64,000 bases of DNA from Ramlibacter paludis (GTDB taxonomy: Bacteria; Pseudomonadota; Gammaproteobacteria; Burkholderiales; Burkholderiaceae_C), in contig NZ_JAKLTM010000009.1 of the NCBI RefSeq assembly GCF_022012305.1, positions 62,001 to 126,000 of the forward strand, in the 5' to 3' direction. The position numbers were made by a program, and so were the translations under genes. This document shows, one piece after another, positions 6,790 through 37,334 of the stretch (positions within the stretch are counted from its first letter, which is position 1; each line of letters opens with the position of its first letter). The notes under the pieces are model-generated. The model was not told the DNA's origin and did not search any database. It worked only from the letters and a program-made list of their open reading frames with translations.

Positions 6790-7362
6790 ATGGAAGACGC
6801 GCCGCGCCTGCTGCTGATGTATGTGGTTTATCCGGTGTGGGTGGCCTGCGGCCTGGCGGACTGGGCCTGCCACCGCCGCACCCGCATCGAGGCCACCAGC
6901 GGCATCCGGGAGAACCTCTTCCACTGGCTGCTGATGGCCGAGATCGGCGTGGCGATGCTGGCGGTGGCCTTGCTCGAGGTGAATGCGGCGATCCTGCTGC
7001 TGGTGTTCGCCTGCTTCCTCGCGCACGAACTCACGGTGTGGATCGAACTGCAGTTCGTCGCGCCGCTGCGCGAGGTGACGCCCACCGAGCAGATGATCCA
7101 CAGCTTCCTGGAGTTGCTGCCGCTGCTGTCGTTGGCGCTGCTGGCTGTGCAGCATTGGGGGCAGGTGATGTCGCTGCTCGATGAATCCATGCCGGACTTC
7201 GGGCTGCGGCTGAAGGACGAGCCTTGGCCGAGCGGGTACTTGTGGGCGGCGTTCGGGGCGGCTGCGGTGTTCAACGGGTTGCCGTTGGCGGAGGAGTTAT
7301 GGCGGTGCTGGCGCAGCCGCGGTTCGGCTGCGCGCTCACCACGGCCTACGGGAACGGCGTGA
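6790..7362 (+). CDS. Small multi-pass membrane protein, unknown function
   Basis: A 190-residue protein with about four predicted membrane helices (near residues 8-25, 45-62, 66-82 and 115-132). I do not recognise the family. It begins four bases after the second exbD and is probably the last gene of that operon, but a role in energy transduction is not shown. The final 15 or so codons (SRGSAARSPRPTGTA) are written by a 33-base repeat that also occurs at 56286-56318. The original stop codon was therefore probably further upstream and the tail is added sequence. Confidence 0.75.
   Translation: MEDAPRLLLMYVVYPVWVACGLADWACHRRTRIEATSGIRENLFHWLLMAEIGVAMLAVALLEVNAAILLLVFACFLAHELTVWIELQFVAPLREVTPTEQMIHSFLELLPLLSLALLAVQHWGQVMSLLDESMPDFGLRLKDEPWPSGYLWAAFGAAAVFNGLPLAEELWRCWRSRGSAARSPRPTGTA
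7319..7351 (+). repeat. 33-base interspersed repeat, copy 1
   Basis: These 33 bases are identical to the reverse complement of 56286-56318. The core is CACCACGGCCTACGG. Here the unit lies at the very end of the 6790-7362 frame, between two convergent genes. The distant copy is likewise between convergent genes, paired with a related arm to make a hairpin. It looks like a short palindromic or REP-type family. Confidence 0.85.
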
Positions 7363-7363
7363 G

Positions 7364-8086
7364 TCAGGTCTCGTACTCCGGCGCCCCCTGCACCCACATG
7401 AACGACTGCAGGTCGATCATGTCCTTCGCCTTGAACCCGGGCTTGCGGTCCAGGTCGCGGCGCAACACGCTGGCGAAGGTCAGCAGGTCCTGGTACTGCG
7501 ACCAGCTCGGCTTGCTGTGGTGGCCGAGCGCGTAGCCATAGAGCTGCGCCGCCTTGCGCGTCGCGCGCGGCTTGAAGAACATGTGGCGATCCGGCCGCGC
7601 GATGAAGCCGAACACCGTCGCCACCGGCCAGGTCAGCACCGGGCTGCGCGGCTGCGGGAGGTCGGCCAGTGCTTCCAGCCAGTCGTTGAAGCGCCGCTGC
7701 GGAGAGCCATGCCCGTAGAGGAAAGCATGCAGTTCGGTGGCGAACAGCCGGGCGCCGGCGGGCGTCTTCACGGCGTCGCGCAGCGCCATGCGCTCGAAGG
7801 AGAACAGCAGGTTCGCGCGCGCCTCGATGCGCACGGCGGCATCGGCGATGTCGCGGAACTCGCCGCGCGCCAGCAGCTTGCGGAAACCGGCCGGGCTCAG
7901 CTCGATGTTCCATTCCATGTGGGCGCGCTCCTTGTGCGAGCGCTCGGCCACCAGGTAGGTCTCGTCCTCGAAACCAGCCGGGTAGAACAGTTCGAACTTG
8001 CGGCGGCAAAGAGCCGCGCCGAGGTAGACGACGTTGGCGCCGGCAGCGCCGGAAGGGGGATACGGTAGGGATGCGGTGCGGGCCAT
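7364..8086 (-). CDS. Conserved hypothetical protein
   Basis: A 240-residue soluble-looking protein that I cannot assign. It has no signal peptide, no membrane helix and no motif I recognise. It is rich in aromatic residues and Arg/Lys, and ends LQSFMWVQGAPEYET. The start ATG at 8086 is preceded by a weak GGAC. It ends one base after the convergent membrane-protein gene and is separated from the phosphoesterase gene upstream by 65 bases on the same strand. The real-gene call rests on length, frame and absence of a better frame in this stretch. Confidence 0.75.
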   Translation of the reverse strand: MARTASLPYPPSGAAGANVVYLGAALCRRKFELFYPAGFEDETYLVAERSHKERAHMEWNIELSPAGFRKLLARGEFRDIADAAVRIEARANLLFSFERMALRDAVKTPAGARLFATELHAFLYGHGSPQRRFNDWLEALADLPQPRSPVLTWPVATVFGFIARPDRHMFFKPRATRKAAQLYGYALGHHSKPSWSQYQDLLTFASVLRRDLDRKPGFKAKDMIDLQSFMWVQGAPEYET

Positions 8087-8151
8087 GAGTCCAGTGTCCG
8101 CAGGGCGTCTAGCTCAGCCGCGTCAGACAATCCGCCACAGGCCTGTAGGAC

Positions 8152-9282
<1,131 letters not shown>

Positions 9283-9390
9283 GGTTGGTTGAAAGACTAG
9301 TGCGCCTGGGTTACGGCAGAGTGAGCGGTTTCTTCATGTAAGCTTGGGTTCAGGATAGCCACAGACCAAGAACCGCAGAGGAGAGCCTCC

Positions 9391-10506
9391 ATGCAGATAG
9401 GCGTCCCCGCCGAGACCACGGCGGGAGAATCCCGTGTCGCCGTCACGCCCGAGACGGCCAAGAAACTCAAGGCGCAGGGCCACACCGTGCGGGTCGCCTC
9501 CGGCGCCGGCCTCGCGGCCAGCGTCACCGACGAGGCCTACCGGGCCGCCGGCTGCGAGATCACCGACCAGTCGGGCGCCCTCGGCTGCGAACTCGTGCTG
9601 AAAGTGCGGCCGCCGCAGGAACAGGAGTTGGTGGCATTCAAGCCCGGTTCAACCCTGGTCGGCGTGCTCAACGTGTTCGACCCCGCCGGGCTGCAGCGCC
9701 TGGCCGCCACCGGCATCACCGGTTTCGCACTCGAAGCCGCGCCGCGCACCACGCGCGCGCAGAGCATGGACGTGCTGAGCTCGCAGGCCAACATCGCCGG
9801 CTACAAGGCCGTGATGATCGCGGCCAACACCTACCAGCGCTTCTTTCCGATGCTGATGACCGCCGCGGGCACCGTGAAGGCGGCGCGCGTGGTGATCCTG
9901 GGCGTCGGCGTGGCCGGCTTGCAGGCGATCGCGACGGCCAAGCGCCTGGGCGCGGTGATCGAAGCTTCGGACGTGCGGCCTTCCGTGAAGGAGCAGGTCG
10001 AGTCGCTGGGCGCCAAGTTCATCGACGTGCCTTACGAGACGCAGGAAGAAAAGGAAGCGGCCGAGGGCGTGGGCGGCTACGCGCGGCCCATGCCGCAAAG
10101 CTGGCTCGACCGGCAGAAGGCCGAAGTGGCCAAGCGCGTGGCGCAGGCCGACGTGGTCATCACCACCGCCTTGATCCCCGGCCGCCCGGCACCGGTGCTG
10201 GTGACCGAGGACATGGTCAAGTCGATGAAGCCGGGCTCGGTGATCGTCGACCTGGCGGCGCCGAACGGCGGCAACTGCCCGCTGACCGAAGCCGGCAAGA
10301 CGGTGGTCAAGCACGGCGTGACGCTGGTCGGCGAGACCAACCTGGCGGCGATGGTGGCGGCGGACGCGTCCGCGCTCTACGCCCGCAACGTGCTGGACTT
10401 CCTCAAGCTCATCCTGCCCAAGGACGGCGGGCTGAAGATCGACATGGAAGACGACATCGTGGCCGCGTGCCTCGTGACCCGTGATGGACAAGTGACCAGG
10501 AAATAA
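9391..10506 (+). CDS. pntAA: NAD(P) transhydrogenase subunit alpha part 1 (PntAA)
   Basis: A 371-residue soluble NAD(H)-binding component (domain I) of proton-translocating transhydrogenase, which makes NADPH from NADH at the cost of the proton gradient. The start [20 protein letters not shown] and the Rossmann motif [18 protein letters not shown] (about residues 170-187) are typical of the AlaDH/PNT family. GAGGAGA precedes the ATG. The alpha subunit is split here, with the membrane part in the next gene, as in many alpha- and betaproteobacteria. pntAB follows after four bases. Confidence 0.97.
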
Positions 10507-10510
10507 CACC

Positions 10511-10822
10511 ATGGAAGTCAGCCACACCGTCATCAACCTGATCATCTTCGTGCTGGCGATCTACGTCGGCTACCACGTGGTCTGGACCGTCACGCCCGCG
10601 CTGCACACGCCGCTGATGGCCGTGACCAACGCCATCTCCGCCATCGTCATCGTCGGCGCCATGCTGGCCGCCGCGCAGACCGAGACCTGGGGCGGCCGGA
10701 CGATGGGCATCCTGGCCGTCGCGCTGGCGGCGGTCAACATCTTCGGCGGCTTCCTCGTCACGCGGCGGATGCTGGAGATGTTCAAGAAGAAGGACAAGAA
10801 GCCGGTGGAGGTCAAGCAATGA
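10511..10822 (+). CDS. pntAB: NAD(P) transhydrogenase subunit alpha part 2 (PntAB)
   Basis: A 103-residue membrane protein with three predicted helices, corresponding to the C-terminal membrane part of E. coli PntA. It begins [20 protein letters not shown] and ends in a Lys-rich tail ([12 protein letters not shown]). It forms part of the proton path with PntB. Its TGA overlaps the ATG of pntB (ATGA), so the two membrane subunits are translationally coupled. Confidence 0.95.
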
Positions 10823-12246
10823 GCATGAACCTCGTCACGCTGCTGTACCTGGCGGCGTCGGTCTGCTTCATCCAGGCGCTCAAGGGCCTGTCGCATCCCA
10901 CCACGTCGATCCGCGGCAACGTCTTCGGCATGGTCGGCATGGCCATTGCCGCCCTGACCACCGCCGCGCTGATCGTCGAACTCTCCGGAGGCCACGGCCG
11001 CGGCCTGGTGTGGGTGCTGCTGGGCCTGGTGGTCGGCGGCGGCTACGGCGCCTACCGCGCCAAGACCGTCGAGATGACCAAGATGCCGGAGCTGGTGGCT
11101 TTCTTCCACAGCATGATCGGCCTGGCCGCGGTGTTCATCGCCATCGCCGCCGTGCTGGAACCGTCCGCGCTGATGCAGGAATTGCAGCCGAGCGCGCCTA
11201 TCCCCCGCGGCAACCGGCTCGAGCTGTTCCTCGGCGCGGCCATCGGCGCCATCACCTTCAGCGGCTCGGTCATCGCCTTCGGCAAGCTTTCGGGCACCTA
11301 CAAGTTCCGGCTGTTCAAGGGCGCCCCGGTGGTGTTTGCCGGCCAGCACATGCTGAACCTGGTGCTGGGCCTGGTGACGATCGGCCTCGGGCTGGTGTTC
11401 GTGTACAACGAAAGCCACGCGGCCTTCTACGCGATGCTGGCGCTGGCCTTCGTGATGGGCGTGCTGATCATCATCCCCATCGGCGGCGCCGACATGCCTG
11501 TGGTGGTGTCCATGCTCAATAGCTATTCGGGCTGGGCGGCGGCGGGCATCGGCTTCTCGCTGAACAACCAGATGCTGATCATCGCCGGCTCGCTGGTGGG
11601 CAGCTCGGGCGCGATCCTGAGCTACATCATGTGCAAGGCGATGAACCGCTCGTTCTTCAACGTGATCCTCGGCGGCTTCGGCGGCGAGGCCGGCACGGCC
11701 GCCGCGGGAACGACGGAGCAACGTCCGGTCAAGAGCGGCAGCGCCGACGACGCGGCCTTCATCCTGGGCAACGCCGAAACCGTCGTCATCGTGCCGGGCT
11801 ACGGCCTGGCGGTGGCGCGCGCGCAGCACGCGGTGAAGGAGCTGGCCGAGAAGCTCACGCACAAGGGCATCACGGTGAAGTACGCGATCCACCCGGTGGC
11901 CGGCCGCATGCCGGGCCACATGAACGTGCTGCTGGCCGAGGCCGAAGTGCCTTACGACCAGGTGTTCGAGATGGAAGACATCAACGGCGAGTTCGGGCAG
12001 GCCGACGTCGCGATCATCCTGGGCGCGAACGACGTGGTGAACCCGGCCGCGCTCACCAAGGGCTCGCCAATCTACGGCATGCCGATCCTGGAAGCCTACA
12101 AGGCCAAGACCGTGATCGTGAACAAGCGCTCCATGGCCGCGGGCTACGCCGGCCTGGACAACGAGCTGTTCTACATGGACAAGACCATGATGGTGTTCGG
12201 CGACGCCAAGAAGGTCGTCGAGGACATGGTCAAGGCCGTGGAGTAG
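10819..12246 (+). CDS. pntB: NAD(P) transhydrogenase subunit beta (PntB)
   Basis: A 475-residue protein. The N-terminal 270 residues hold about nine membrane helices (domain II) and the C-terminal part is the NADP(H)-binding domain III. Domain III shows [37 protein letters not shown] and the loop NDVVNPAA. With PntAA and PntAB it completes the transhydrogenase. Length agrees with E. coli PntB (462). The ATG overlaps the end of pntAB. Confidence 0.97.
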
Positions 12247-12337
12247 AGGCCTCTCCCTCGGAGCCTTAGGGAAAACCGGGGGAAACCCGCATACTCGGGC
12301 GGCGACAATCGCGCCCAAGGATTCGGAGCAAACAAGA

Positions 12338-15173: not shown

Positions 15174-16079
15174 ATGGCCGTCGTTTCCCCTCCCGTCATC
15201 GTGAAGACCGCGCCCACGCCTCCGGGGCCGTGGCGCGAATTCTGGATGTCGTTCTCGCAGAACCACGGCGCCGTCGGCGGCCTGGTGATCGTCGGCATCC
15301 TGCTGCTGCTGGCGGTGTTCGCGCCGTGGATCGCCCCACATGCGCCCGACGCGACCAACAGCGCCGCCTTCCTGCGGCCGCCGGCCTGGCAGGCGGGCGG
15401 CTCCACGGAGTTCCTGTTCGGCACCGACGCCATCGGCCGCGACATCCTGTCGCGCCTGATCCACGGCGCGCGCCTGTCGCTGTCGATCGGCATCGCGGTC
15501 GTCGCGCTGTCGGTGGCGGTCGGCATCGCGCTGGGCCTGGTCGCCGGCTTCGCGCGTGGCCTGACCGAGATCTTCATCATGCGGCTGATGGACATCATCC
15601 TCACGCTGCCCAGCCTGCTGCTGGCGATCGTGATCGTGGCCATCCTCGGCCCCGGCCTGGTGAACGCGATGCTGGCCGTGGCGGTCGTCGTGCTGCCGCA
15701 TTACGTGCGCATCACGCGCGCCGCGGTGATCGCCGAGGTCGCGCGCGACTACGTGACGGCCGCGCGCGTCAGCGGCGCCGGCACCTTGCGCCTGATGTTC
15801 AGCGAGGTGCTGCCCAACTGCGCGGCGCCGCTGATCGTGCAGGCCTCGCTGGGCGTGTCCACCGCCATCCTCGACGCGGCGGCGCTGGGCTTCCTGGGCC
15901 TGGGCGCGCAGCCGCCCTCGCCCGAGTGGGGAACCATGCTGGCCGATGCCCGCGAATTCGTGCTGCGCGCCTGGTGGGTCGTGACCTTCCCCGGCCTGAT
16001 GATCCTGGCCGCCGTGCTGGCCTTCAACCTGCTGGGCGACGGCCTCCGTGACGCCCTGGACCCGAAGCTGAAGCGATGA
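15174..16079 (+). CDS. dppC: Dipeptide-type ABC transporter permease (DppC-like)
   Basis: A 301-residue permease with an N-terminal OppC-type segment, then five to six helices. The conserved loop is [22 protein letters not shown], and [19 protein letters not shown] precedes the transport domain. It is the partner of DppB. The end overlaps the next gene by four bases (ATGA), so the importer subunits are coupled at translation. Confidence 0.94.
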
Positions 16080-17101
16080 GCGAACCCCTTCTCGTGATCG
16101 AAGACCTGCACGTCGAATTCCCGACGCAGGGCAGCGTCATGCACGCGGTGGAAGGCGTGAGCCTGACGCTGGAGCAGGGCGAGGTGCTGGGCATCGTCGG
16201 CGAGTCCGGCTCCGGCAAGAGCGTCACCATGATGGCGCTCATGGGCCTCATCGCCTACCCGGGTCGCGTGCGCGCCAAGACCTTGCGCTTTGCCGGCAAC
16301 GACCTGCTGGGCATCTCCGACAAGGAGCGCCGCCGGCTCGTGGGCAAGGACATGGCGATGATCTTCCAGGAGCCCACCACCAGCCTGAATCCCTGCTTCA
16401 CCATCGGCTACCAGCTGGTGGAGGCGCTGCTGCTGCACTCGCCCCTGGACAAGAAGAGCGCGCACCGGCAGGCCATCGCCTTGCTCGAGCAGGTCGGCAT
16501 CCCCGCCGCCGCCTCGCGCATGAACGACTACCCGCACCAGCTCTCGGGCGGCATGAACCAGCGCGTGATGATCGCGATGGCGATCTCCTGCAACCCGCGC
16601 CTGCTGATCGCCGACGAGCCGACCACCGCGCTCGACGTCACCATCCAGGCCCAGATCCTGGACCTGCTGCGCAACCTGCAGAAGGAGCGCGGCATGGCGC
16701 TGGTGCTGATCACGCACAACATGGGCGTGGTGAGCGAGATGGCGCAGCGCATCGCGGTGATGTACGCCGGCCAGGTGATGGAGCAGCAGGCGGTCGACAA
16801 GCTCTTCGCCAGTCCGCAGCATCCGTACACCGAGGCCTTGCTGTCCGCGCTGCCGGAGCAGGGTGAGGCGGGCCATCGCCTGGCGACCATTCCCGGCGTG
16901 GTGCCGGGCGTGTTCGACCGGCCCACCGGCTGCCTGTTCTCGCCGCGCTGCGCCTATGCCACCGAGCATTCGCGCACTGTGCGGCCCGAGCTGCGCGACT
17001 GGCAGGGCGGCCAGGTGCGCTGCCACTATCCGCTGGGCGACCCGTCGCGCGCGCAACGCATCGAGCAGGACGTCCCGGTGCGCATCGAGGTGCTGGCATG
17101 A
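16076..17101 (+). CDS. dppD: Dipeptide-type ABC transporter ATPase (DppD-like)
   Basis: A 341-residue cytosolic ATPase. Walker A is GESGSGKS (about residues 42-49), the ABC signature LSGGMNQR and Walker B LLIADEP. The C-terminal oligopeptide-transporter extension contains [11 protein letters not shown], with cysteines that in some DppD proteins bind an iron-sulfur cluster. It powers uptake with DppF. Both ends overlap neighbours by four bases. Confidence 0.95.
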
Positions 17102-18117
17102 GCCGTGTGGTCGTCGAAGCGAAGGACCTGCGCAAGGTCTACCCGATCCGCCGCGGCATGTTCAAGGAGCCGGCGCAGCTGCAGGCCGTGGGCGGCGTGT
17201 CGTTCACGCTGGAAGAAGGCAAGACGCTGGCGGTGGTCGGCGAGTCCGGCTGCGGCAAGTCCACGCTGGCGCGCATGGTGGCGCTGATCGAGAAGCCGAC
17301 GCAAGGCACGCTGCAGCTCGATGGCACCGATGCGGTCGACACGCCGGCCAGCGAGAAGCGCCGGCTGCGGCAGGCCGTGCAGCTGGTGTTCCAGAACCCG
17401 TACGGCTCGCTGAACCCGCGCAAGAAGATCAGCGCCGTGCTGGAAGCGCCGCTGGCCATCAACACCGACCTGCCGGCGGCCGAACGCGCCGAGCGCGCGC
17501 GCAAGATGCTGGCGCAGGTGGGCCTGCGGCCCGAGTACGCGAACCGCTATCCGCACATGTTCTCCGGCGGCCAGCGCCAGCGCATCGCGATCGCGCGCGC
17601 GCTGATGCCGGGGCCCAAGCTGGTGGTCGCCGACGAGCCGGTGTCGGCGCTGGACGTCTCGATCCAGGCGCAGGTGCTCAACCTGCTGTCCGACCTGCAG
17701 CAGGAGCTGCAGCTCGCGTATCTCTTCATCTCGCATGACCTGGCCGTGGTGCGCCATATCGCGCACGACGTGCTGGTGATGTACCTGGGGCACGTGATGG
17801 AGCAAGGGCCCAAGCAGCGCATCTTCGCGCAGCCGCTGCACCCTTACACCAACGCCTTGCTTGCCTCCACCCCGGGGATCGGGCCGCGCTCCAGGCAGCG
17901 CATCGTGCTGCAGGGGGAGCTGCCTTCGCCCCTGCATCCGCCCGCGGGCTGCGTCTTTTCCAGCCGCTGCCCGTACGCGGTCGACCTGTGCCGCGCCGAA
18001 CGTCCGCTGCCGCGGCCGGTCGACGCTCGCCTGGTCGCCTGCCATTTCGCCGAGGACTTCCTGGCCAAGGGTTTCCCCGAGGCCACGGTTGCCCATAATG
18101 CATCCCTCTCCGGTTGA
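17098..18117 (+). CDS. dppF: Dipeptide-type ABC transporter ATPase (DppF-like)
   Basis: A 339-residue ATPase, second of the pair. Walker A GESGCGKS is near residue 43, the signature is FSGGQRQR, and Walker B is LVVADEP. The C-terminal extension has [11 protein letters not shown]. It starts inside the end of dppD. A CATAAT box at 18094-18099 in the last codons could start a separate transcript for the highly needed binding protein dppA that follows 31 bases later (inference). Confidence 0.95.
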
Positions 18118-19812: not shown

Positions 19813-20514
19813 ATGCGCACCGCCATCGTCTCCGCGATGCACCAGGAGCTCGCCGCCGTGCTGGCCTTGCTGCCCGACGAGCAGAAGCAGCGGGTCGCGG
19901 GCCGCGACTTCTGGGTCGGCCACCTGCACGGACAGGAAGTCGTGGCCGTGCTGTCGCGCATCGGCAAGGTGGCCGCGGCCACCACGGCCACCGTCCTCAT
20001 CGAACGCTTCCGCGTCGATCGCATTCTCTTCACCGGCGTCGCCGGCGGCATCGCACCGGGCGTGAACCGCGGCGAGGTGGTCGTCGCCGACGCCTTCCTG
20101 CAGCACGACCTCGATGCGTCCCCGCTCTTCCCGCGCTACGAGGTGCCGCTCTACGGGCGCGACCGCTTCCCCACCGATCCCGCGCTGACCGAGCGGCTCG
20201 CCGCCGCCGCGGCGCGCAGCTTGCACGGCGCGCGAGTCCACCGCGGCCTGGTAGTCAGCGGCGACCGCTTCGTCTCCAGTGCCTCCGAATGCCGCGCGCT
20301 GCAAACGGCCTTGCCCGATGCGCTGGCGGTGGAGATGGAAGGCGCGGCTTTCGCCCAGGTGTGCCACGACTATGGCGTGCCCTTCGCCGCGGTGCGCACC
20401 ATCAGCGACCGGGCCGACGATGATGCGCACGGCGACTTCCTGAGTTTCATCGACCAGGTGGCGAGCCGGCATTCGGCGGCCATCGTCGAGGCCTTCCTCG
20501 CGGCCAGGCCCTAG
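19813..20514 (+). CDS. mtnN: 5'-methylthioadenosine/S-adenosylhomocysteine nucleosidase
   Basis: A 233-residue nucleosidase that cleaves adenine from methylthioadenosine and S-adenosylhomocysteine, which recycles by-products of SAM-dependent reactions. The start MRTAIVSAMHQELAAVLALL, the middle LFTGVAGGIAP and the active-site region AVEMEGAAFAQVC followed by VRTISDRADD are family hallmarks. The ATG at 19813 lies only about 15 bases after the dpp terminator, with GACAAT just before it. It converges on the beta-barrel gene with a four-base overlap. Confidence 0.94.
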   Translation: MRTAIVSAMHQELAAVLALLPDEQKQRVAGRDFWVGHLHGQEVVAVLSRIGKVAAATTATVLIERFRVDRILFTGVAGGIAPGVNRGEVVVADAFLQHDLDASPLFPRYEVPLYGRDRFPTDPALTERLAAAAARSLHGARVHRGLVVSGDRFVSSASECRALQTALPDALAVEMEGAAFAQVCHDYGVPFAAVRTISDRADDDAHGDFLSFIDQVASRHSAAIVEAFLAARP

Positions 20515-21194
20515 TCGTCGTCCAGGTCGAACGCCACCCCGATCGTCCAGTTCGATCCCTGCGGGCCCGCGATCTTCTGCGCCCGGCTCAGGTCGATCGT
20601 CCAGTTGCGGCCCGCCGCCCAGCGCGCGCCGGCGCGCACGAAGTGGCCGCCCTGCTCGCGATAGCGCTCCAGCACGAAGGACCAGCGCGGCACCGGGCTC
20701 CACTCCAGGGCCAGGCCGCCGCGCGGCTCGTCGGCCGCGCCATGCTCGAAGTCGCGCCCGTAGTTGGCGTGCAGCGCCAGGTCCGCCCGCGGCTGCCAGG
20801 TCGCGATGGCATAGGCGCTGGTGCCGGCGTAGCGGGGATGCGCGTTCGACTGGGCCACCGGCGAGAGGTCGAAGCCGATGCTGAAGCCCTCGGCGAGCTC
20901 GCGCGCCCACTTGACTTCGACGCCCCAGAAAGTGCGCGAGGGCTCGCCGCCCAGGCGCCCGTGCTCGCCGGCGAGGCCCAGTTCCACCGGCCCCACCCGG
21001 CAATTCACGCCGGCATGCAGGCGCTGCCGGCCGCCGTCGATGCGGGTGAACCAGCTTTCCTGCTCGCACTCGCCGCGCGGCAGGATGGCGGCATCGTCGA
21101 CGTTGTGGTGCCCGCCCGCGGCCTGCGCCGTGCCGGCCACGAGCGCCGCTGCCAGCGCCAGCAATGCCAGCCTGATCCCTTTCCCTCGCTCCAT
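20511..21194 (-). CDS. Periplasmic/outer-membrane beta-rich protein of metal cluster, unknown function
   Basis: A 227-residue protein with a signal peptide (MERGKGIRLALLALAAALVA..., cleaved after TAQA) and a mature start GGHHNVDDAAILPRGECEQE. The rest alternates polar and aromatic residues like an outer-membrane beta-barrel. The exact family is not recognised. It follows the ABC permease by seven bases on the same strand and is the last gene of the znu-like cluster. The His-rich mature start fits metal contact, which is inference. Confidence 0.75.
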   Translation of the reverse strand: MERGKGIRLALLALAAALVAGTAQAAGGHHNVDDAAILPRGECEQESWFTRIDGGRQRLHAGVNCRVGPVELGLAGEHGRLGGEPSRTFWGVEVKWARELAEGFSIGFDLSPVAQSNAHPRYAGTSAYAIATWQPRADLALHANYGRDFEHGAADEPRGGLALEWSPVPRWSFVLERYREQGGHFVRAGARWAAGRNWTIDLSRAQKIAGPQGSNWTIGVAFDLDDD

Positions 21195-21201
21195 CCGCGC
21201 A

Positions 21202-21975
21202 TCATGCAGGATCGCGCGCGGTCCCCGGCAACAAAAGCGACAGGAGCAGCGCGATGCTGCTCAATGACCACACGATGACCGCGCCCGAGGGCAGGTCGAA
21301 CAGCGCCGACAGCAGCAATCCGGTCACGTAGCCCGCGGTGCCGAGGGCGTAGCCGATCGCGATGCGCCCGCGGCCGCGCCGCTTCACGGTGGCCAGCGCC
21401 GGCACGATCAGGCTGGTGAACACCAGGTAGACGCCCACCAGCTGCACCGAAGCCGTGACCGCCACCGCGAACGCCGCATAGAAGCCGAAGCGCCCGAGCC
21501 GCTGCACCCAGCCCAGGGCAAGCGCCACCAGCAGCACCGCGGTCACGGCGGCCAGCGACAGCAGCTGCGGCGTGCCGACCCAGAGGATCTGGCCCACCAG
21601 CAGGTCCTTGAGGTGTTCGCCGCCGCGCGGATTGCCAGCCAGCAGCAGGATGCCGCCCGAGGCCGCCAGCACGAACAGCACGCCGATCAGCGCTTCCTGG
21701 TGGCGCTCGGCGCGCCGCTCGGTCCACGTCAGCAAGGCCGCGCCCAACAGGGCCGCGCACACCGCGGCGGCCTGCACCGCCAGCCCGTGTTCCGGCAGGC
21801 CGAGCGCATCGGCCGCGATCACGCCCAGTCCCGCGATCTGCGCGATGGCCAGGTCGATGAAGACGATGCCGCGATCCAGCACCTGCATGCCCAGCGGCAC
21901 GTGCGTGGCCAGCACCAGCAGGCCGGCGACCAGCGCCGGCAGCAGGATGCCGAGGTCGATGGCGCTCCAGTTCAT
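21202..21975 (-). CDS. znuB: Metal (zinc/manganese-type) ABC transporter permease, ZnuB-like
   Basis: A 257-residue ABC-3 family permease with about eight membrane helices. It begins MNWSAIDLGILLPALVAGLL, includes VFIDLAIAQIAGLGVIAADA and VYLVFTSLIVPALAT. Members import Zn or Mn with a ZnuA-type binding protein and a ZnuC-type ATPase. The ATG overlaps the znuA stop as ATGA. No ATPase gene is found beside it, which is unusual. The metal is not fixed by sequence. Confidence 0.87.
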   Translation of the reverse strand: MNWSAIDLGILLPALVAGLLVLATHVPLGMQVLDRGIVFIDLAIAQIAGLGVIAADALGLPEHGLAVQAAAVCAALLGAALLTWTERRAERHQEALIGVLFVLAASGGILLLAGNPRGGEHLKDLLVGQILWVGTPQLLSLAAVTAVLLVALALGWVQRLGRFGFYAAFAVAVTASVQLVGVYLVFTSLIVPALATVKRRGRGRIAIGYALGTAGYVTGLLLSALFDLPSGAVIVWSLSSIALLLSLLLPGTARDPA

Positions 21976-22892
21976 TTGGCGCCGGCGGCGGCCAGCAGGC
22001 GCGCCACCGTGTCGTCGAAGAGGCCCGTGAGGTCCTTGGCCGCATCGCTGCCGCCCACCGTGAACGGCACCTTCACCACCGGGATGCTCGCGTTCTTGCC
22101 CAGCCACTCGGCCGGCCGGCCATCCTGGTAGGCCGCATGCAGCACCATCCGCGCGGGTGTCGCCTTCAGCGTTGCCAGCACCGACTGCAGGTGCGCCGCG
22201 CTCGGCTCGACGCCGGGTTTCGGCTCCAGCACCGCCACTTCCTTCAGCCCGAGCCAGTCGTACAGGTAGACGAAGCCCTTGTGCTGCGACACCACCGGCA
22301 GGCCGCGCAGCGGAGCCGCCTGCGCGTTCCAGCGCGCCAGCGAGGCCTGCCACTTCTGCTGGAAGGCGGCGCCGCGCTGCGCGTAGTCGGCGGCATGCGC
22401 GGCGTCCACCTGCTGCAGGCGCGTCGTCAGCGCGCGCGCGACGGCGGCGATGTTGCGCGGATCGGTCTGGATGTGCGGGTTGCCCGCGGCGTGCACGTCG
22501 CCTTGCGAGCGGTCCACGCTGGCCGGGACCTCCAGCTTGCGCACGAAGTCCGCGGCGGCGAAGTTGCCCGGCTGGCCCGCCTGCACCTTGTCGTTGCCGG
22601 ACTGCTGCAGCAGCACCGGCAGCCAGCCGATCTCCAGCTCGGCGCCGGTGCAGGCCAGCAGGTCGGCGTTGCGCATGCGCGCGATCAGGCTGGGGCGGGC
22701 CTGCACCTGGTGCGGGTCCTGCAGCGCGGTGGTCGCGGCGCTGACGTCGACCAGCGGACCGCCCAGTTCCTGCGCGAGCGCCGCCCACTCGGGTTCGCAG
22801 GCCAGTACGCGCAACGCGGCTTGCGCCGGCATCGCCACCAGGGAGGCGAAGGCGAGCAGGGCGCTGCCGACGAACTTGAGGTTGTTGATCAC
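21972..22892 (-). CDS. znuA: Metal ABC transporter substrate-binding protein, ZnuA-like
   Basis: A 306-residue periplasmic receptor of the cluster A-I family, with a signal peptide of about 25 residues (MINNLKFVGSALLAFASLVA). Three His residues sit at the canonical metal-ligand positions: His61 (QDPH), His140 (GNPH) and His204 (SQHKG), with an acidic fourth ligand likely near the end. The start is GTG at 22892, chosen because AAGGAGAG precedes it; no ATG fits. It lies 11 bases after the outer-membrane protein gene and overlaps znuB by four. The His-rich loop of classical ZnuA is absent. Confidence 0.9.
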   Translation of the reverse strand: MINNLKFVGSALLAFASLVAMPAQAALRVLACEPEWAALAQELGGPLVDVSAATTALQDPHQVQARPSLIARMRNADLLACTGAELEIGWLPVLLQQSGNDKVQAGQPGNFAAADFVRKLEVPASVDRSQGDVHAAGNPHIQTDPRNIAAVARALTTRLQQVDAAHAADYAQRGAAFQQKWQASLARWNAQAAPLRGLPVVSQHKGFVYLYDWLGLKEVAVLEPKPGVEPSAAHLQSVLATLKATPARMVLHAAYQDGRPAEWLGKNASIPVVKVPFTVGGSDAAKDLTGLFDDTVARLLAAAGAK

Positions 22893-22903
22893 GAGGCTCT
22901 CCT

Positions 22904-24244
22904 TCAATAGCTGTGCGCGCCGTGCGCGCCGAGGCTCATCTGGTACTGCAGCAGCCACTGGAAGTCGCTGGCGCCGGGGCGCGCACGGTCCTGCGCGAGT
23001 TGCAGGCGGATGCGCGAGAACTCGCTGGGGTTGTGTTCCAGCATCAGGCTGGCCTTGCGCGGATTGCCCTCGCCCGTGCCGGGGTCCAGCTGCTCCGCGC
23101 GCAGGCCGACGCGCCAGCGCGGCATGAACTGGTAGACGCCTTGCAGGTACCAGCCGGATTGCGTCACGCGGTAGTCGCCGGGCGTGGCGGCGCCGCCGAC
23201 ATCGGTGACCAGCGTGCCTTCGCGCGTGCTGCGCAGGTACTCGCCCTGCAGCTTGAAGTTGGTGCGCGTCGCATTCCCGTTCGGTGCCCACTTCCAGACG
23301 GCATCGGCAATCCACACGCGGCTGCGCCCGGTGAACGCATTCAGCAGGTCGCCATCGGCCAGCAGCTGGTCGGTCGCTTTCGCCTGCAAATAGGAAACGC
23401 CCGCGCGCCAGCTGTGGCTGTCGCCGATGTCGTCGCCCAGGTGCGCGGAGAGCGCCGCCATGCCCGCGCCGTTGGCGTTGTTGTCGCTGCCCGGGAAGGA
23501 GCGGCCGCGGCCGACTTCGGCCTTGAATTCCAGCAGGCGGTCGGTCGGCGCGAGCCACCTCACCTGCAGGCCGTCGTCGCCGTATTGCGTGCCCAACATC
23601 GCCTGGTAGGCGAGCGGCGCGTCCGCGAAGTCCCAGGTGTGGGCATGCTGCTCGTTCAGGTAGCCGATGCCGGAGAAGAAGCGGCCCGCCTTTACCGTCA
23701 GCCCGTGGCCGAGCGCCGTCGTCTGCACGTTGGCCTCTTCCACCGACACCGAGTTGTCCGGCCCGAAGGCGATGTTGGCCACGCCGCGGAACCACGGGTC
23801 GATGCTGGCCGAGAGCCCGAGCTCGGTTTCATTCAGGCTGAAGCCGCGCGTGCCGGGTCCGATCTCGGCGTCGGGCGGCAGGGGAAAGCCGCGGATGCGG
23901 TAGGTGGCGGGATCCTGGCGCGTGTTGCCGTACTGGCCGCTCAGGATCAGCGAGACGGCGGGCTGGAAGCCGCCGCCGCCGCGAGCAGGCACTGCTGCCA
24001 CCGTGGCTGGTGCGGTGGGCGCCGTTGCCGTGGCCGGCGCAGGTTCCGGCGGCTTCGCGGCAAGCGCCGCTTCGGCCGCCTGCAGCCGCTGCTCCAGCGC
24101 CTGCATCTTCCTTTCGTACTCGGCGCGCAGCGCATCGAGCTCGCGCCGCAGCGCCTGGGTGTCGGGGGCCGGCTGCGCCTGCGCGGCGCCGGCAACGGCG
24201 GTGAAGGCGAGCGCCATGCCGGCTCGCATCCATCCATGTTCCAT
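22904..24244 (-). CDS. Outer-membrane porin-like protein linked to zinc-type importer
   Basis: A 446-residue secreted protein. After the signal peptide (about 1-23) comes a coiled-coil of heptads (residues about 27-60, RRELDALRAEYERKMQALEQ), then a Pro/Ala linker, then a long domain of alternating strands ending in QWLLQYQMSLGAHGAHSY, as in a 16-18-stranded porin. Proteins of this layout are found next to znuA-like genes. I infer that it lets metal or chelated metal through the outer membrane. The ATG at 24244 has AAGGAG before it; the frame starting at 24280 is less likely. znuA follows within 11 bases. Confidence 0.8.
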   Translation of the reverse strand: MEHGWMRAGMALAFTAVAGAAQAQPAPDTQALRRELDALRAEYERKMQALEQRLQAAEAALAAKPPEPAPATATAPTAPATVAAVPARGGGGFQPAVSLILSGQYGNTRQDPATYRIRGFPLPPDAEIGPGTRGFSLNETELGLSASIDPWFRGVANIAFGPDNSVSVEEANVQTTALGHGLTVKAGRFFSGIGYLNEQHAHTWDFADAPLAYQAMLGTQYGDDGLQVRWLAPTDRLLEFKAEVGRGRSFPGSDNNANGAGMAALSAHLGDDIGDSHSWRAGVSYLQAKATDQLLADGDLLNAFTGRSRVWIADAVWKWAPNGNATRTNFKLQGEYLRSTREGTLVTDVGGAATPGDYRVTQSGWYLQGVYQFMPRWRVGLRAEQLDPGTGEGNPRKASLMLEHNPSEFSRIRLQLAQDRARPGASDFQWLLQYQMSLGAHGAHSY

Positions 24245-24300
24245 GGGGTTCTCCTTGCACGATGACGAGGCCACGCGCACACGCGCGTGGACGGGAAACG

Positions 24301-24615
24301 TCAGGCGGGCAGGGAAGGCGGTGCGCGGCTTTGGTAAGGAGCGGCGGCGACAAGCGCCGGCGCCACGTGGGCGACGTCGCGCGGCGCGTCGTGTTCGACG
24401 GCGGGAAGCGGCAGCGCCGCATGCGTGGCGGCCGGCGCCGCGCCGGCGCCGATGACGGCGGCCGCGACGCAGACGTCGCAGGAGGCAAGCAGGTGCTTGT
24501 CGCTGCTGGACCGCGTGGGGTCCTGCAAGTGCGCGTAACCGTGCACCGCCGCGCCCAGCTGCGCCAGCGGCAGCAGCAGCGCCAGCCAGAACACCCAGGC
24601 GGAGACGCGCTTCAT
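24301..24615 (-). CDS. Small exported Cys/His protein (DUF2946-like)
   Basis: A 104-residue protein with an N-terminal hydrophobic export segment (MKRVSAWVFWLALLLPLAQL), a motif CDVC near residue 46 and several His residues (HGYAHLQ, KHLL, EHDAP). DUF2946-type proteins share a short CxxC region in a similar frame; the match is tentative. It starts one base after the corA stop and lies 56 bases before the porin gene, so corA and the znu-like genes may be one transcript. A metal chaperone role is inference only. Confidence 0.65.
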   Translation of the reverse strand: MKRVSAWVFWLALLLPLAQLGAAVHGYAHLQDPTRSSSDKHLLASCDVCVAAAVIGAGAAPAATHAALPLPAVEHDAPRDVAHVAPALVAAAPYQSRAPPSLPA

Positions 24616-24616
24616 G

Positions 24617-25609
24617 TCAGCTGCTCAGCCAGCCGCGCTTGCGGAAGTACCACATGGGCACCACGGCGCTGGCGATCATCAGCCCCAGCACATAGGGATA
24701 GGCGCCGCGGCCCAGGTATTGCAGCTCGGGGAACTGCAGGTTCATGCCGTACAGGCTGGCCACCAGGGTAGGTGGCAGCAGGGCCACGCTGGCCACCGAG
24801 AAGATCTTGATGATCTTGTTCTGGTTGATGTTGATGAAGCCGACGGTGGCGTCCATCAGGAAGTTGATCTTGTCGAACAGGAAGGCCGTGTGGTTGTCCA
24901 GCGACTCGATGTCGCGCAGGATCTGCCGCGCCTCCTCGAACTGGCCGGCGCTCAGCATGCGGCTGCGCATCATGAAGCTGACCGCGCGCCGGGTGTCCAT
25001 CACGTTGCGGCGGATGCGGCCGTTCAAGTCCTCCTGGCGGGCGATGGCGGACAGCACTTCGCCGGCCAGCGTGTCCGTCACTTCGCCCTTGAGCACCTGG
25101 TTGCTCACCTTCTCCAGCTCGTCGTAGATCCCTTCCAGCGTGTCGGCCGAGTATTCGGCGTCGGCGTCGAAGAGCTTGAGCAGCACCTCCTTCGCGTCCT
25201 CGATCAGGCCGGGGGCGCGGCGCGCGCGCAGGCGCAGCAGCCGGAACACCGGCACGTCCTCGTCGTGGATGGAGAACAGCACGCCATGGCTTTTCAGCGA
25301 GGCGTTCAGCAGGTTCAGGATGAAGGCCACGCGCACGGTGCGCGGCTCGTCGTCGCCGGCGATCAGGAAGTCGCTGCGGATATGCAGGTCGCCGTTGTCT
25401 TCCTCGTAGAAGCGGGCCGACTCCTCGATGTCCTCGTCCATCGCGTCTTCCGGGATGGACAGGCCGTAGTACTGCTTGACCCAGCGCTTCTCTTCCAGCG
25501 TGGGCGCTTCCAGGTCGACCCAGATCGGCTGGAAGCGCGACAGCTCCTCCAACGACTCGATTTCCTCCTGGAACAGGCGGCCGTTGGCGAGCGTGAAGAT
25601 GTTCAGCAT
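24617..25609 (-). CDS. corA: Magnesium/cobalt transporter CorA
   Basis: A 330-residue CorA channel. The long N-terminal cytosolic domain is rich in acidic residues. Two membrane helices at the C-terminus flank the invariant YGMN motif (SLYGMNLQFPE, about residue 290). It forms a pentamer that admits Mg and sometimes Co or Ni. CATAAT (minus strand, 25632-25627) lies 17 bases before the ATG. The small Cys/His gene follows one base after its stop. Confidence 0.97.
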   Translation of the reverse strand: MLNIFTLANGRLFQEEIESLEELSRFQPIWVDLEAPTLEEKRWVKQYYGLSIPEDAMDEDIEESARFYEEDNGDLHIRSDFLIAGDDEPRTVRVAFILNLLNASLKSHGVLFSIHDEDVPVFRLLRLRARRAPGLIEDAKEVLLKLFDADAEYSADTLEGIYDELEKVSNQVLKGEVTDTLAGEVLSAIARQEDLNGRIRRNVMDTRRAVSFMMRSRMLSAGQFEEARQILRDIESLDNHTAFLFDKINFLMDATVGFININQNKIIKIFSVASVALLPPTLVASLYGMNLQFPELQYLGRGAYPYVLGLMIASAVVPMWYFRKRGWLSS

Positions 25610-25650: not shown

Positions 25651-26853
25651 TCAATCGCGCCGTTGGAAGAATGCAAGCAGTTCGTCTTTTCGCGCATACG
25701 CATCCTGTTCGCCCAGGGCGATCAGGGCCTGCACGAAGGCCGGCTCGAACAGCAGGTAGCTCGCGAGCGCGGCCCCGCCGTTGCGCAGCGCGCCCAGGCC
25801 GCCGAGCGCGCGCCGCACCGTCGGCGGCAGCAGGCGCACGTGGGTGCGGGCGATGGCGTCCAGCGACTGGGTGGGCTGGATCGCCAGCACTTCGATCGGC
25901 CGGTAGGGCAGCACCGCGGCGATCTCGCGCGGCAGCTGCTGCAGCGTGCGGGCCAGGCGCTGCGTCTGTTCGACGTCGCCCTGCAAGGTGTCGTGGAACA
26001 CGCTGGCCATGGCATGGGCCGCGATGCCGCCGAGACCGGGTTCGCGGTCCGAGGGCCCGGCACCCAGGCCGGAGCGTTCGGGCTGGCCCACGCCCACCAC
26101 CAGCACCTTGTGTGCGCCCAGGTGCACGGCCGGCGAGATCGGCGACACCTGCCGCATCGAGCCGTCGCCGAAGTATTCGCGCCGGCCGTCCACCCACAGC
26201 GGCGTGGCCGGGAACAGGAAGGGGATGGCGCTGGAGGCCATCAGGTGCTCGATGGTGAGCGGCTGGAATTCGGCGCGCCGGCCCGGCCGGTGCCAGGGCT
26301 CGTGCTTGCGGTCGGCTTCGGTATGGACGAAGGTCCAGTGCACCCCGCTGCTGTAGCTGGAGGCGGTGATGGCCACGGCGTCCAGCGCCTTGGCGCGCAG
26401 GGCGTCGTCGATGCCGGCCAGCGAGATCACCCGGTGCAGCGTGTCGACCAGCGGCATCGTGTCCAGGACGGCGCCTTGCTCCCGCGCCCGGCCCCACAGC
26501 TTGACGGCCGCCAGCAGCCGGCTGAAGCGCACCCAGGCCGGCGCGTCCAGGCGGTAGACGTCGTCGCAATGCAGCTCCAGCCAGAAGGAGCGCAATTCGT
26601 CGAAGGCGACCATCCCGCGGGCGGCGCCGCTGGCGAGGTAGGCGACGTTGAGGGCGCCGGCCGAGGTTCCGACCAGCACCTGGAAGGGGAACGAGCCTTC
26701 CGCATGGCCCGGCTGCAGCCGCAGCATGGCGCTCAGCGCGCCCAGCACGCCCACCTGGTAGGCCGTGCGGGCGCCGCCCCCCATCAGCACCAGGCCGTGG
26801 ACCAGGCGCGAGGGGCGGACGAGGCCGCTGTGGATGATGGTGCCGAGGCTCAT
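25651..26853 (-). CDS. Patatin-like phospholipase
   Basis: A 400-residue patatin-family lipid acyl hydrolase with a Ser-Asp dyad. The oxyanion glycine loop is GGGARTAYQ (about residues 25-33), the nucleophile lies in GTSAG (about 62-66), and the Asp is in DGSMR (DG[GA]-like, with Ser in the third place). Related bacterial proteins act on membrane phospholipids. No signal peptide is evident. It stands alone upstream of corA, 41 bases away on the same strand. Confidence 0.92.
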   Translation of the reverse strand: MSLGTIIHSGLVRPSRLVHGLVLMGGGARTAYQVGVLGALSAMLRLQPGHAEGSFPFQVLVGTSAGALNVAYLASGAARGMVAFDELRSFWLELHCDDVYRLDAPAWVRFSRLLAAVKLWGRAREQGAVLDTMPLVDTLHRVISLAGIDDALRAKALDAVAITASSYSSGVHWTFVHTEADRKHEPWHRPGRRAEFQPLTIEHLMASSAIPFLFPATPLWVDGRREYFGDGSMRQVSPISPAVHLGAHKVLVVGVGQPERSGLGAGPSDREPGLGGIAAHAMASVFHDTLQGDVEQTQRLARTLQQLPREIAAVLPYRPIEVLAIQPTQSLDAIARTHVRLLPPTVRRALGGLGALRNGGAALASYLLFEPAFVQALIALGEQDAYARKDELLAFFQRRD

Positions 26854-36050: not shown

Positions 36051-37334
36051 ATGGACGCCAGCAGCAGCAACAAGAACCCCGTTATCGACCATGTCGCGCA
36101 GGAGGCACGCTTCGGCGCGCGCAACTACGCACCGGTGCCGGTGGTGGTGGACCACGCGAAGGACTGCCTGGTGTGGGACGTCGACGGGCGCGAATACATC
36201 GACATGATGAGCGCGTATTCCGCGGTGAGCCACGGCCACCTGCACCCGCGCATCGTCGCCGCCGCCGAGGCCCAGCTGAAGAAGGTGGCGGTGATGTCCC
36301 GCGCCTACTACAGCACCACGCTGGGCCCCTTCGTGCAGAAGCTGAGCGAGGTCACGGGCTTCGAGCGCGTGTTGCCGATGAACACCGGCGCCGAAGCGGT
36401 GGAGACGGCGATCAAGTGCGCGCGCCGCTGGGGCCACCGCATCAAGGGCATTCCCGACGGCCAGCAGAAGATCCTGGTGGCGCGCGGCAATTTCCACGGG
36501 CGCACCAGCACCATCATCGGCTTCTCCAGCGAGCAGGAATACCGCACCGGCTTCGGCCCTTTCGACGGCGGCTTCCAGCACTTCGACTACGGCGACATGG
36601 CCAGCGTGAAGGCCGCCGCCACCGCGAACACCTGCGCCGTGCTGATCGAGCCGATCCAGGGCGAGGCCGGCGTGCTGGTGCCGCCGCCCGGTTTCTTCCA
36701 GGAACTGCGCGCCTGGTGCACCGAGAACAACGTGCTGTTGATCGACGATGAAGTCCAGGCCGGCCTGGGCCGCACCGGCAAGTGGTTCGCCTTCCAGCAC
36801 GAGGGCATCCGGCCCGACGCGCTGATCCTCGGCAAGGCGCTGGGGGCAGGGCTGCTGCCGGTCAGCGCTTTCTGCGCCGACGACAAGGTCATGCAGGTCT
36901 TCACGCCCAACAGCCATGGCTCCACCTTCGGCGGCAACGCGCTGGCGGCGGCGGTGGCGCTGGAAGGCCTGAAGGTGCTGGAGGAAGAGAAGCTGATAGA
37001 GCAGTGCGCCGAGAAGGGCGAGTACCTGTTCAAGCGGCTGCGCGAGATCCAGTCCGAAGTGGCGCCGCTTATCCGCGGTGTGCGCGGCCGGGGTTTGTGG
37101 GTGGGTGTCGACATCGAGCCGTCGTGCACCACGGCGCGCGACCTGGTGGAGCGCCTGGCCAAGGGCGGTGTCCTGTCGAAGGAAACGCACGAGACCGTGA
37201 TCCGCTTCGCACCGCCGCTGACCATCACCTACGAGTTGATCGACAAGGCCGTCGACATCTTCCGCGGGGTCTGCCAGCAGAAGTACCGCGAGCTGGACCT
37301 GGGGCGGAAAACGAACACCGTCCTCCCGGCTTAG
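36051..37334 (+). CDS. rocD: Ornithine aminotransferase (RocD-type)
   Basis: A 427-residue class III PLP aminotransferase that converts ornithine and 2-oxoglutarate to glutamate semialdehyde and glutamate. DDEVQAGLGRTG and the PLP-lysine region LILGKALGAGLLPVSAF are clear, with YSAVSHGHLHPRI near the start. The ATG at 36051 has GGGAG before it; the frame opens five codons earlier. It sits between lptE and holA with a 161-base upstream gap that holds no clear promoter beyond weak boxes, and a weak GGCGG/CCGCC hairpin. Its product is also the product of ProA downstream. Confidence 0.93.
   Translation: MDASSSNKNPVIDHVAQEARFGARNYAPVPVVVDHAKDCLVWDVDGREYIDMMSAYSAVSHGHLHPRIVAAAEAQLKKVAVMSRAYYSTTLGPFVQKLSEVTGFERVLPMNTGAEAVETAIKCARRWGHRIKGIPDGQQKILVARGNFHGRTSTIIGFSSEQEYRTGFGPFDGGFQHFDYGDMASVKAAATANTCAVLIEPIQGEAGVLVPPPGFFQELRAWCTENNVLLIDDEVQAGLGRTGKWFAFQHEGIRPDALILGKALGAGLLPVSAFCADDKVMQVFTPNSHGSTFGGNALAAAVALEGLKVLEEEKLIEQCAEKGEYLFKRLREIQSEVAPLIRGVRGRGLWVGVDIEPSCTTARDLVERLAKGGVLSKETHETVIRFAPPLTITYELIDKAVDIFRGVCQQKYRELDLGRKTNTVLPA

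Follow-up and report, generated by a model that had tools for sequence, protein, structure and literature searches.

A porin, a ZnuA-like receptor and a ZnuB-like permease without an adjoining ATPase gene: a proposed metal uptake unit in Ramlibacter paludis and other proteobacteria

A 64,000-nucleotide stretch of the Ramlibacter paludis genome (positions 62001-126000 of contig C21; genome of 4.99 Mb in 21 contigs), referred to here as the window, was examined around a cluster of genes encoding a ZnuA-like receptor and a ZnuB-like permease. The features of the cluster are listed in Table 1. All its genes lie on the minus strand, and in the order of transcription they encode a patatin-like protein, CorA, a small Cys/His protein, a porin, the ZnuA-like receptor, the ZnuB-like permease, and a beta-rich exported protein. 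From CorA to the beta-rich gene, successive genes were separated by 1, 56, 11, -4 (overlap of receptor and permease), and 7 bases. An earlier note, made from the sequence of this DNA, had described five genes at 20511-24615 with no ZnuC ATPase in or beside them; both points were confirmed. The nearest ATP-binding cassette (ABC) ATPase genes were two ABC_tran genes at 16076-18117 on the opposite strand, which by our reading appear to be of the oligopeptide type.

Table 1. Genes and candidate functional sites of the cluster (window coordinates)
Feature	Position	Strand	Basis
Patatin-like gene	25651-26853	-	
CorA	24617-25609	-	
Small Cys/His protein, exported, 104 aa; one CxxC (CDVC), histidines, 'SRAPP'-type C-terminus	24301-24615	-	
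Porin, exported; N-terminal helix 28-63 followed by barrel; aromatic C-terminus 'SLGAHGAHSY'	22904-24244	-	
Porin H200-x-H202, invariant, candidate metal site	23639-23647	-	70 aligned porins
Porin H441-x-x-H444 near C-terminus, invariant, candidate metal site	22913-22924	-	70 aligned porins
ZnuA-like receptor, GTG start; DPH (H61), GNPH (H140), H204, conserved C32 and C81	21972-22892	-	
ZnuB-like permease, 257 aa, FIDLAIAQ type, without coupling loop	21202-21975	-	
Permease D41-x4-Q46, replacing the canonical D-x3-H metal motif	21838-21855	-	
Permease E94, replacing the canonical triad Asp	21694-21696	-	
Permease residues 154-160, remnant of the loop bearing the coupling segment in canonical ABC-3 permeases	21496-21516	-	
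Beta-rich exported protein	20511-21194	-	

The receptor scored 139.4 bits against PF01297 (cut-off 29) and the permease 81.1 bits against PF00950 (cut-off 20.1), and the ZnuA-like and ZnuB-like identities given in the earlier note held. The porin, the small protein, and the beta-rich protein had no match above any Pfam cut-off. The small protein reached 14.8 bits against DUF2946 (PF11162), under the gathering cut-off of 23.7; the beta-rich protein had no Pfam match at E <= 1, and its best NCBIfam score was 15.3 bits against a cut-off of 450. The R. paludis genome contained one PF00950 permease gene (two matches within a single frame). In the named-genome collection, the closest matches of this permease were in Burkholderiales and Comamonadaceae.

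The gene neighbourhood was compared in 110 loci, consisting of 30 around matches in the genus and order and the best 80 of at least 540 named candidates; two of these, L048 and L161, seem to represent a single contig, which means that the set is not fully independent. Permease matches were found in 31 of the 61 genus and order genomes, R. paludis included. By tblastn, the permease was detected in 110 loci, the receptor in 109, the porin in 103, the small protein in 20, and CorA and the beta-rich protein in 4 each. A contig end lay at the site of the one absent receptor (L167) and at five of the seven absent porins (L033, L059, L096, L157, and L167); the other two loci, L053 and L061, had no recognisable porin. 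Clustering of the neighbours in 127 loci placed genes resembling that of the small protein about 2.9 kb before the permease in 55, a count made up of clusters 7, 33, and 34, of which 33 and 34 were included on the strength of location and C-terminus, with some loci cut short of this point. Other neighbours varied, and the commonest were downstream genes that we take to be hslV (14 of 127 loci) and hslU (11 of 127). Because the remaining neighbourhood differs among loci, the conserved cassette is the four genes at 21202-24615, encoding the small protein, the porin, the receptor, and the permease. This cassette recurs in more than 100 proteobacterial loci with differing neighbourhoods.

The porin was closely linked to the permease. 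At E <= 1e-20, the porin profile matched 35 of 397 genomes of the phylum, and in 34 of these a cassette-type permease (at least 130 bits) lay within about 2.5 kb; the exception was genome G285. Permeases of at least 130 bits were present in 37 genomes, the D-x4-Q motif not having been read in every one. Three genomes (G081, G100, and G188) had the permease without a match to the porin profile. The profile likewise gave no porin match at loci L208 and L211, and the porin gene of G173 was fragmented.

The earlier note had coupled five genes and proposed that their co-occurrence in other genomes be examined. The coupling stood for the four genes at 21202-24615, which recur together; the beta-rich gene (20511-21194), found in 4 of 110 loci, proved to be a separate neighbour. 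This gene and CorA were both rejected as cassette parts, each occurring in 4 of 110 loci and the two adjoining each other in cassette-free relatives. Of the 19 genus genomes tested, 11 carried the beta-rich gene, among them 9 of the 13 without a permease match. CorA, the beta-rich gene, and a nucleosidase-like gene (presumably MTAN) stood side by side in L336, L339, L340, and L342, from genomes without a permease match, and the same trio was found in L338, whose genome carries its cassette elsewhere. CorA also adjoined the beta-rich gene in L343, L344, and L345. In the window, the cassette lies between these two genes. The beta-rich protein, to which no family was assigned, is thus kept between CorA and the nucleosidase-like gene in several members of the genus that have no cassette at that place.

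Several other cassette loci were observed. In L061 (G039:C4), positions 7262-8509 encode a second permease, of FVDLTLAQ type and about 415 residues, with a long C-terminal extension and a divergent receptor upstream; a porin match was lacking, the roughly 7.5 kb to each side yielded no ATPase, and this permease lies outside the 75 aligned below. A divergent group of cassette permeases scoring 130-150 bits was found in L205-L211, from a single family (f64) of 2-3 Mb genomes (G077, G120, G085, G194, G065, and G108), some of which carry two cassette permeases and a canonical-scoring ABC-3 permease. A contig of a metagenome-assembled genome titled Bordetella parapertussis (L166, CAMDSO010000001.1) carried the cassette with 62% permease identity; the label seems doubtful for a metagenome bin. 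Spread by plasmids was also considered and rejected. The plasmid collection gave one weak match, in a 2.06-Mb Vibrio campbellii record (36.5%) with no gene annotated there; the porin, receptor, and permease genes were present in this record as well, and there was no ATPase match.

ATPase genes near the permease were searched for with a profile built from 29 ABC ATPases, mostly from R. paludis. No transporter-type ATPase adjoined the permease in the 110 loci, in 16 further loci with the D-x4-Q motif, in the cassette region of G244, or in L302 and L303. In 12 of the 110 loci the downstream side was barely probed, because the contig ends less than 1 kb past the permease. The only ABC gene directly adjoining the permease was in L173 (3936-6774), 17 bases downstream; this gene passed the ABC-F model NF000355 with 454.4 bits (cut-off 380) and scored 782 bits against PRK10636 (cut-off 917). 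Other nearby ABC genes were GldA/DrrA-like in L135 and LolD-like in L105 (both under their cut-offs), without a model match at E <= 1e-60 in L053, and on the opposite strand in L162. As controls, 23 canonical ABC-3 loci were picked by us from the lower-scoring permease matches (L212-L215 and L283-L301), and 22 of the 23 had a same-strand ATPase within about 1.75 kb. The earlier note had considered that an ATPase gene might be adjacent in all relatives and have simply moved here; such an arrangement was looked for and did not occur. Across the compared loci, the absence of the ATPase thus defines a permease family and is not an accident of one genome.

The permease itself was altered in the region expected to meet an ATPase. 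The window's permease and 74 others chosen for diversity from 125 were aligned with the 23 canonical permeases. Between L131 and G181, both invariant, the span was 47-52 residues in 75/75 family permeases versus 69 in 23/23 canonical ones. The family permeases were short by about 19 residues, corresponding to a canonical segment that ends in A-x3-G; at these columns A (0.96) and G (1.00) were conserved in the canonical set, and all family rows had gaps. Counted by eye, the last G of A-x3-G in canonical ABC-3 permeases is residue 46 when counting starts at the FG[DN] glycine, and in the R. paludis FecCD permease the end of 'GETAAASLG' is equally far from the LLGT motif; by our reading, the two motifs probably correspond. 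PMC5136619 places the ATPase-contacting coupling helix of the type II importer BhuUV in the cytoplasmic region between transmembrane helices (TM) 6 and 7, and PMC11779740 names coupling helices. We infer that the loop deleted in the family is the homologue of the TM6-TM7 coupling loop of BhuUV.

The predicted model of the permease agreed with this deletion. In the model (predicted local distance difference test, pLDDT, 95.0), helices 135-153 and 161-180 are joined by residues 154-160 only, which contain a 4-residue helix. The model matched PsaC with a VIA Z of 25.0 over 247 residues (TM-score by query length 0.74-0.81) and BtuC and BhuU with Z of 18-20 over 243-246 residues, and the permease profile scored 75.1 bits against the solved ZnuB 9oko. 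In the VIA lists for the permease and porin models, no other family stood above ABC permeases and porins, respectively, an absence that in itself excludes nothing. The fold and membrane part thus appear to have been kept and the docking part lost.

The metal-binding triad of the membrane part was also changed. Transport by MntC requires Asp47, His51, and Asp94 (PMC8487065), and Asp46 and His50 of PsaC are reported to coordinate manganese (PMC11779740). In the family, D41 (one position earlier), Q46, and E94 were each present in 75/75 permeases; at the last two positions the canonical permeases had His (23/23) and Asp (23/23). A motif scan found Q at the motif in 123 of 125 permeases. Many membrane positions were strictly conserved, including the acidic D41 and E94, and family-specific conserved polar positions included H25, H117 (Arg in the window), E120, Q129, and Q178. 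Of the marks of a canonical ABC-3 system, a PF00950 permease with ABC-3 fold and a PF01297 receptor encoded alongside it were found; an ATPase beside the permease, the cytoplasmic coupling loop, and the Asp-His-Asp triad were not. The earlier note had left open either an ATPase encoded elsewhere or a permease with a changed role. The latter is favoured, by the lack of an adjoining transport ATPase and by the loop deletion in 75/75 permeases.

An ATPase encoded elsewhere in the genome was evaluated by model searches. In the R. paludis genome, the ZnuC model had no match at E <= 1e-28 (93 of 127 candidates scored), and the same search gave a match in 13 of 14 named control genomes. At the same threshold, an orphan ZnuC was sought with NF007090 across 15 genomes; only G028 (101.5 bits) and G059 (102.6 bits) gave matches, both far below the cut-off of 306, and the idea was rejected. 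The ZnuC of L293, described below, scored 231 bits against the ZnuC model. The FecCD permease was absent from 5 of 21 cassette genomes. In four of these five (G060, G244, G173, and G413), the single ABC-3-type match at E <= 1e-10 was the cassette's own permease. G244 is one contig of 2.72 Mb, and its 34 ABC_tran matches (E <= 1e-8) correspond to 30 proteins, which were compared with NCBIfam; the class names are approximate because many best matches were under the curated cut-off. The best models were LolD/MacB-like (5), type I secretion (2), FtsE, PhnT2/PotA-like, cyanophycin-associated, MsbA and MsbA-like (3), LptB, MlaF or MlaF-like (3), Drr/Nod-like (2), LivG, LivF, NtrCD, WtpC/PhnT-like, PstB, an oligopeptide double ATPase, Uup, EttA, another ABC-F, CcmA, and L278. 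L278, which scored under every cut-off and had no clear class, was best matched by SufC (135.9 bits, cut-off 212.8); its neighbour is a SufBD-core protein. For none of the 30 was the best model that of ZnuC, AztA, HmuV, FecE, or any other ATPase of type II importers.

These results bear on the explanation that the permease is powered in trans by such an ATPase. Some sugar importers share ATPases, the fold and overall layout are ABC-importer-like, and the R. paludis genome has 105 ABC_tran domain matches (not classified one by one) and one FecCD importer. Against this, 75/75 permeases lack the loop that corresponds by homology to the coupling segment, the ZnuC model that detects its target in most control genomes finds none here at E <= 1e-28, a ZnuC-type gene adjoined the permease in no locus examined, and the ATPases of G244, a cassette genome, all have best models outside the type II importer class. 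As the loop is deleted and no ATPase of G244 has a best model of zinc- or siderophore-importer type, a borrowed ATPase is improbable, and this part of the earlier note is disfavoured.

The AlphaFold2 porin model (pLDDT 89.8; below 50 at residues 444-446) consisted of an N-terminal helix at residues 28-63, coiled-coil like, and a barrel of, by our count, probably 16 strands, in agreement with the earlier description of a porin-like protein with a coiled-coil start. The closest structures were OprO/OprP (VIA Z 28.3 over 311 residues). Invariant positions among the 70 aligned porins included E169, H200, H202, D272, E335, R382, H441, and H444. In an alignment of 18 receptors, H140 and H204 were invariant, and H61, C32, and C81 were conserved in at least 90%. 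The receptor profile matched 53 distinct solved sequences of ZnuA/PsaA type, with zinc receptors at the top. The best NCBIfam equivalogs were AztC for the receptor (75.1 bits, below the cut-off of 350) and AztB for the permease (59.3 bits, below the cut-off of 280).

A link to zinc was found in G285, the genome in which the porin has no cassette-type permease nearby. At L293 (4060-8884), canonical znuA shares its strand with genes for a small CxxC protein and the porin, and divergent from these are a FUR-family gene (45.1 bits), znuC (231 bits), and znuB (248.5 bits). The small CxxC protein resembles that of the cassette in place and make-up. By its gene content, this single locus ties the porin family to zinc import with a canonical pump, and its arrangement is perhaps intermediate between canonical znuABC and the cassette. 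The cross-envelope metal route suggested in the earlier note is supported by this locus and by the close linkage of the porin.

Zur boxes were scanned with the motif GTTA-N5-TAAC, as given in PMC4176598, upstream of the porin in 108 of 119 loci with a porin match; 11 loci were dropped for having less than 150 bases upstream. L147 had a perfect Zur-like box just ahead of the porin gene, and Zur-like boxes were similarly close in L126, L132, and L139. A box with at most one mismatch was found in 17 of the 108 loci versus a shuffled mean of 10.2 (maximum 16), and a perfect box in 2 versus 0.4 (maximum 3). Nine loci had a matrix score above all 40 shuffles versus 2.6 expected. At L281 of G244 (9182-12269), a DksA-type gene and a CobW-family GTPase gene are near the cassette, company that is typical of zinc-starvation regulons. 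A ZIP transporter was found in 30 of 31 genus members tested, R. paludis included, with or without the cassette; a complementary distribution of the cassette and ZIP was therefore rejected. The assignment to zinc is indirect, and it would follow from the ZnuA type of the receptor, the porin context in G285, and the Zur-like boxes at four loci.

The cassette could also be an ATPase-free uptake unit for another metal, namely copper, manganese, cobalt, or iron. Receptors of the ZnuA fold include manganese and iron types, the triad is unlike the canonical one, and the small protein resembles DUF2946, which PMC4176598 lists close to resistance-nodulation-division (RND) efflux genes. This explanation is quite unlikely, given that zinc receptors head the solved matches, that the best (sub-cut-off) NCBIfam match of the receptor is of zinc type, that the porin family and a similar small protein occur in the znuABC locus of G285, that Zur-like boxes occur at a few loci, and that the G244 cassette is near the CobW-family GTPase and DksA-type genes.

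We propose, with a probability of about 0.57, that the four genes at 21202-24615 form a cross-envelope uptake unit for metal, most likely zinc, which works without an ABC ATPase. The proposal draws on the linkage and conservation of the genes, the absence of an ATPase gene where one was sought, the loop deletion, the triad change, and the predicted folds, and it extends from these to substrate, direction, dimeric state, driving force, and the roles of each histidine and of the small protein. Metal would pass the outer membrane by way of the dedicated porin, perhaps binding to its invariant HxH and HxxH. It would then be ferried through the periplasm by the ZnuA-like receptor, which would load the ZnuB-like permease and provide specificity and a local supply of metal. 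The permease, probably dimeric and of ABC-3 (type II) descent, would have become a receptor-dependent secondary transporter or facilitator by losing the coupling loop and retuning its triad, with D41 and E94 making a transmembrane metal site. Because the ATPase partner and its loop have both been lost, the permease probably imports zinc by another energy source, which may be a co-ion, the membrane potential, or both. A possible role of the small Cys/His protein is that of an accessory handling metal in the periplasm.

Alternatively, the permease may not transport at all and may dock or sense loaded ZnuA, for example as a periplasmic metal signal or in a hand-over to ZIP or CorA. Loss of the ATPase together with replacement of an essential His by Gln could mean that transport has been lost, ZIP is nearly universal in the genus members tested, and CorA is found close to the cassette in the window and at four of the compared loci. 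The CorA proximity is only local, at the frequency given above, and no signalling family recurred at a fixed place beside the cassette in the locus clustering. The strict conservation of membrane positions, the acidic D41 and E94 among them, and the retention of the cassette in G244, which has neither FecCD nor a second ABC-3 match, also speak for transport, and a non-transporting permease is considered unlikely.

Several observations weigh against an ATPase-free zinc uptake unit. The control locus L295, with two permeases, likewise had no ATPase in its 9 kb. The full ATPase inventory covers one genome, G244, with many class names below the curated cut-off, and the identity of the deleted loop as a coupling helix would rest on homology and not on a structure of the family. 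Clear Zur-like boxes occurred in few loci, and the overall excess of boxes with at most one mismatch was weak. A Zur site, whose presence the earlier note had suggested checking, was not found near the cassette in the window; the sole match in the 64 kb was at 37330, with 1.16 expected by chance. The presence of ZIP in 30 of 31 genus members means that the cassette is not the sole zinc route. In addition, PMC4176598 lists DUF2946, the nearest family of the small protein, next to an RND efflux operon of Caulobacter. The three alternatives, namely a role other than transport, uptake of another metal, and an ATPase lent by another system, carry similar and low probabilities.

If the ATPase-free uptake unit is real, it has consequences for how these transporters are viewed. 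ABC importers are defined by their ATPase. A conserved family that keeps the receptor and permease and lacks the docking loop would illustrate a route from a primary pump to a secondary transporter, and it would become testable which parts of an ABC permease serve transport as such. Many environmental proteobacteria would have an extra zinc route across both membranes with a dedicated porin, which searches keyed on ZnuC miss; the cassette permeases are likely annotated as incomplete zinc ABC transporters. A broader and more tentative claim, held at somewhat less than even odds, is that an ABC importer lineage gave rise to a new transporter class, receptor-dependent, ATPase-free, and ion-gradient-driven, which together with a metal-binding porin makes a complete zinc route and is widespread in proteobacteria. 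No earlier description of such a system was found in the open-licence PMC literature, within the portions available and with search terms that were possibly too narrow, or in the accessible parts of the Cupriavidus metallidurans literature and a Zur review.

Comparison with known systems showed both common and distinct features. The cassette resembles ZnuABC, MntABC, and PsaABC in its PF01297 receptor, its PF00950 permease with a PsaC-type fold (Z 25.0), and the adjoining genes of the two; it differs from them in having no ATPase gene, a deleted coupling loop, an Asp-Gln-Glu triad, and a porin within the unit. AztABC gave the best equivalog scores (75.1 bits for the receptor with AztC, 59.3 bits for the permease with AztB); these were far under the cut-offs of 350 and 280 bits, and the cassette has no ATPase gene. 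The porin shares its barrel fold with the 16-stranded porins OprP/OprO (OprO Z 28.3, 311 residues) and DcaP (Z 23.4, 287 residues), but only about 10-15% identity, and it is distinguished from them by the invariant HxH and HxxH and by its genetic tie to ZnuA/ZnuB-like genes. Porins of the OprP/OprO type are trimeric, and in OprP an arginine ladder forms the substrate pathway. Solitary BioY and CbiMN, of the ECF type, are parts of ATP-driven systems reported to work without ATPases; they are different proteins from those of the cassette and have no periplasmic receptor. The TRAP and TTT transporters are receptor-dependent, ATPase-free, and driven by ion gradients, with membrane proteins unrelated to the ABC-descended permease of the cassette, and they may serve as a working analogy for transport by the cassette.

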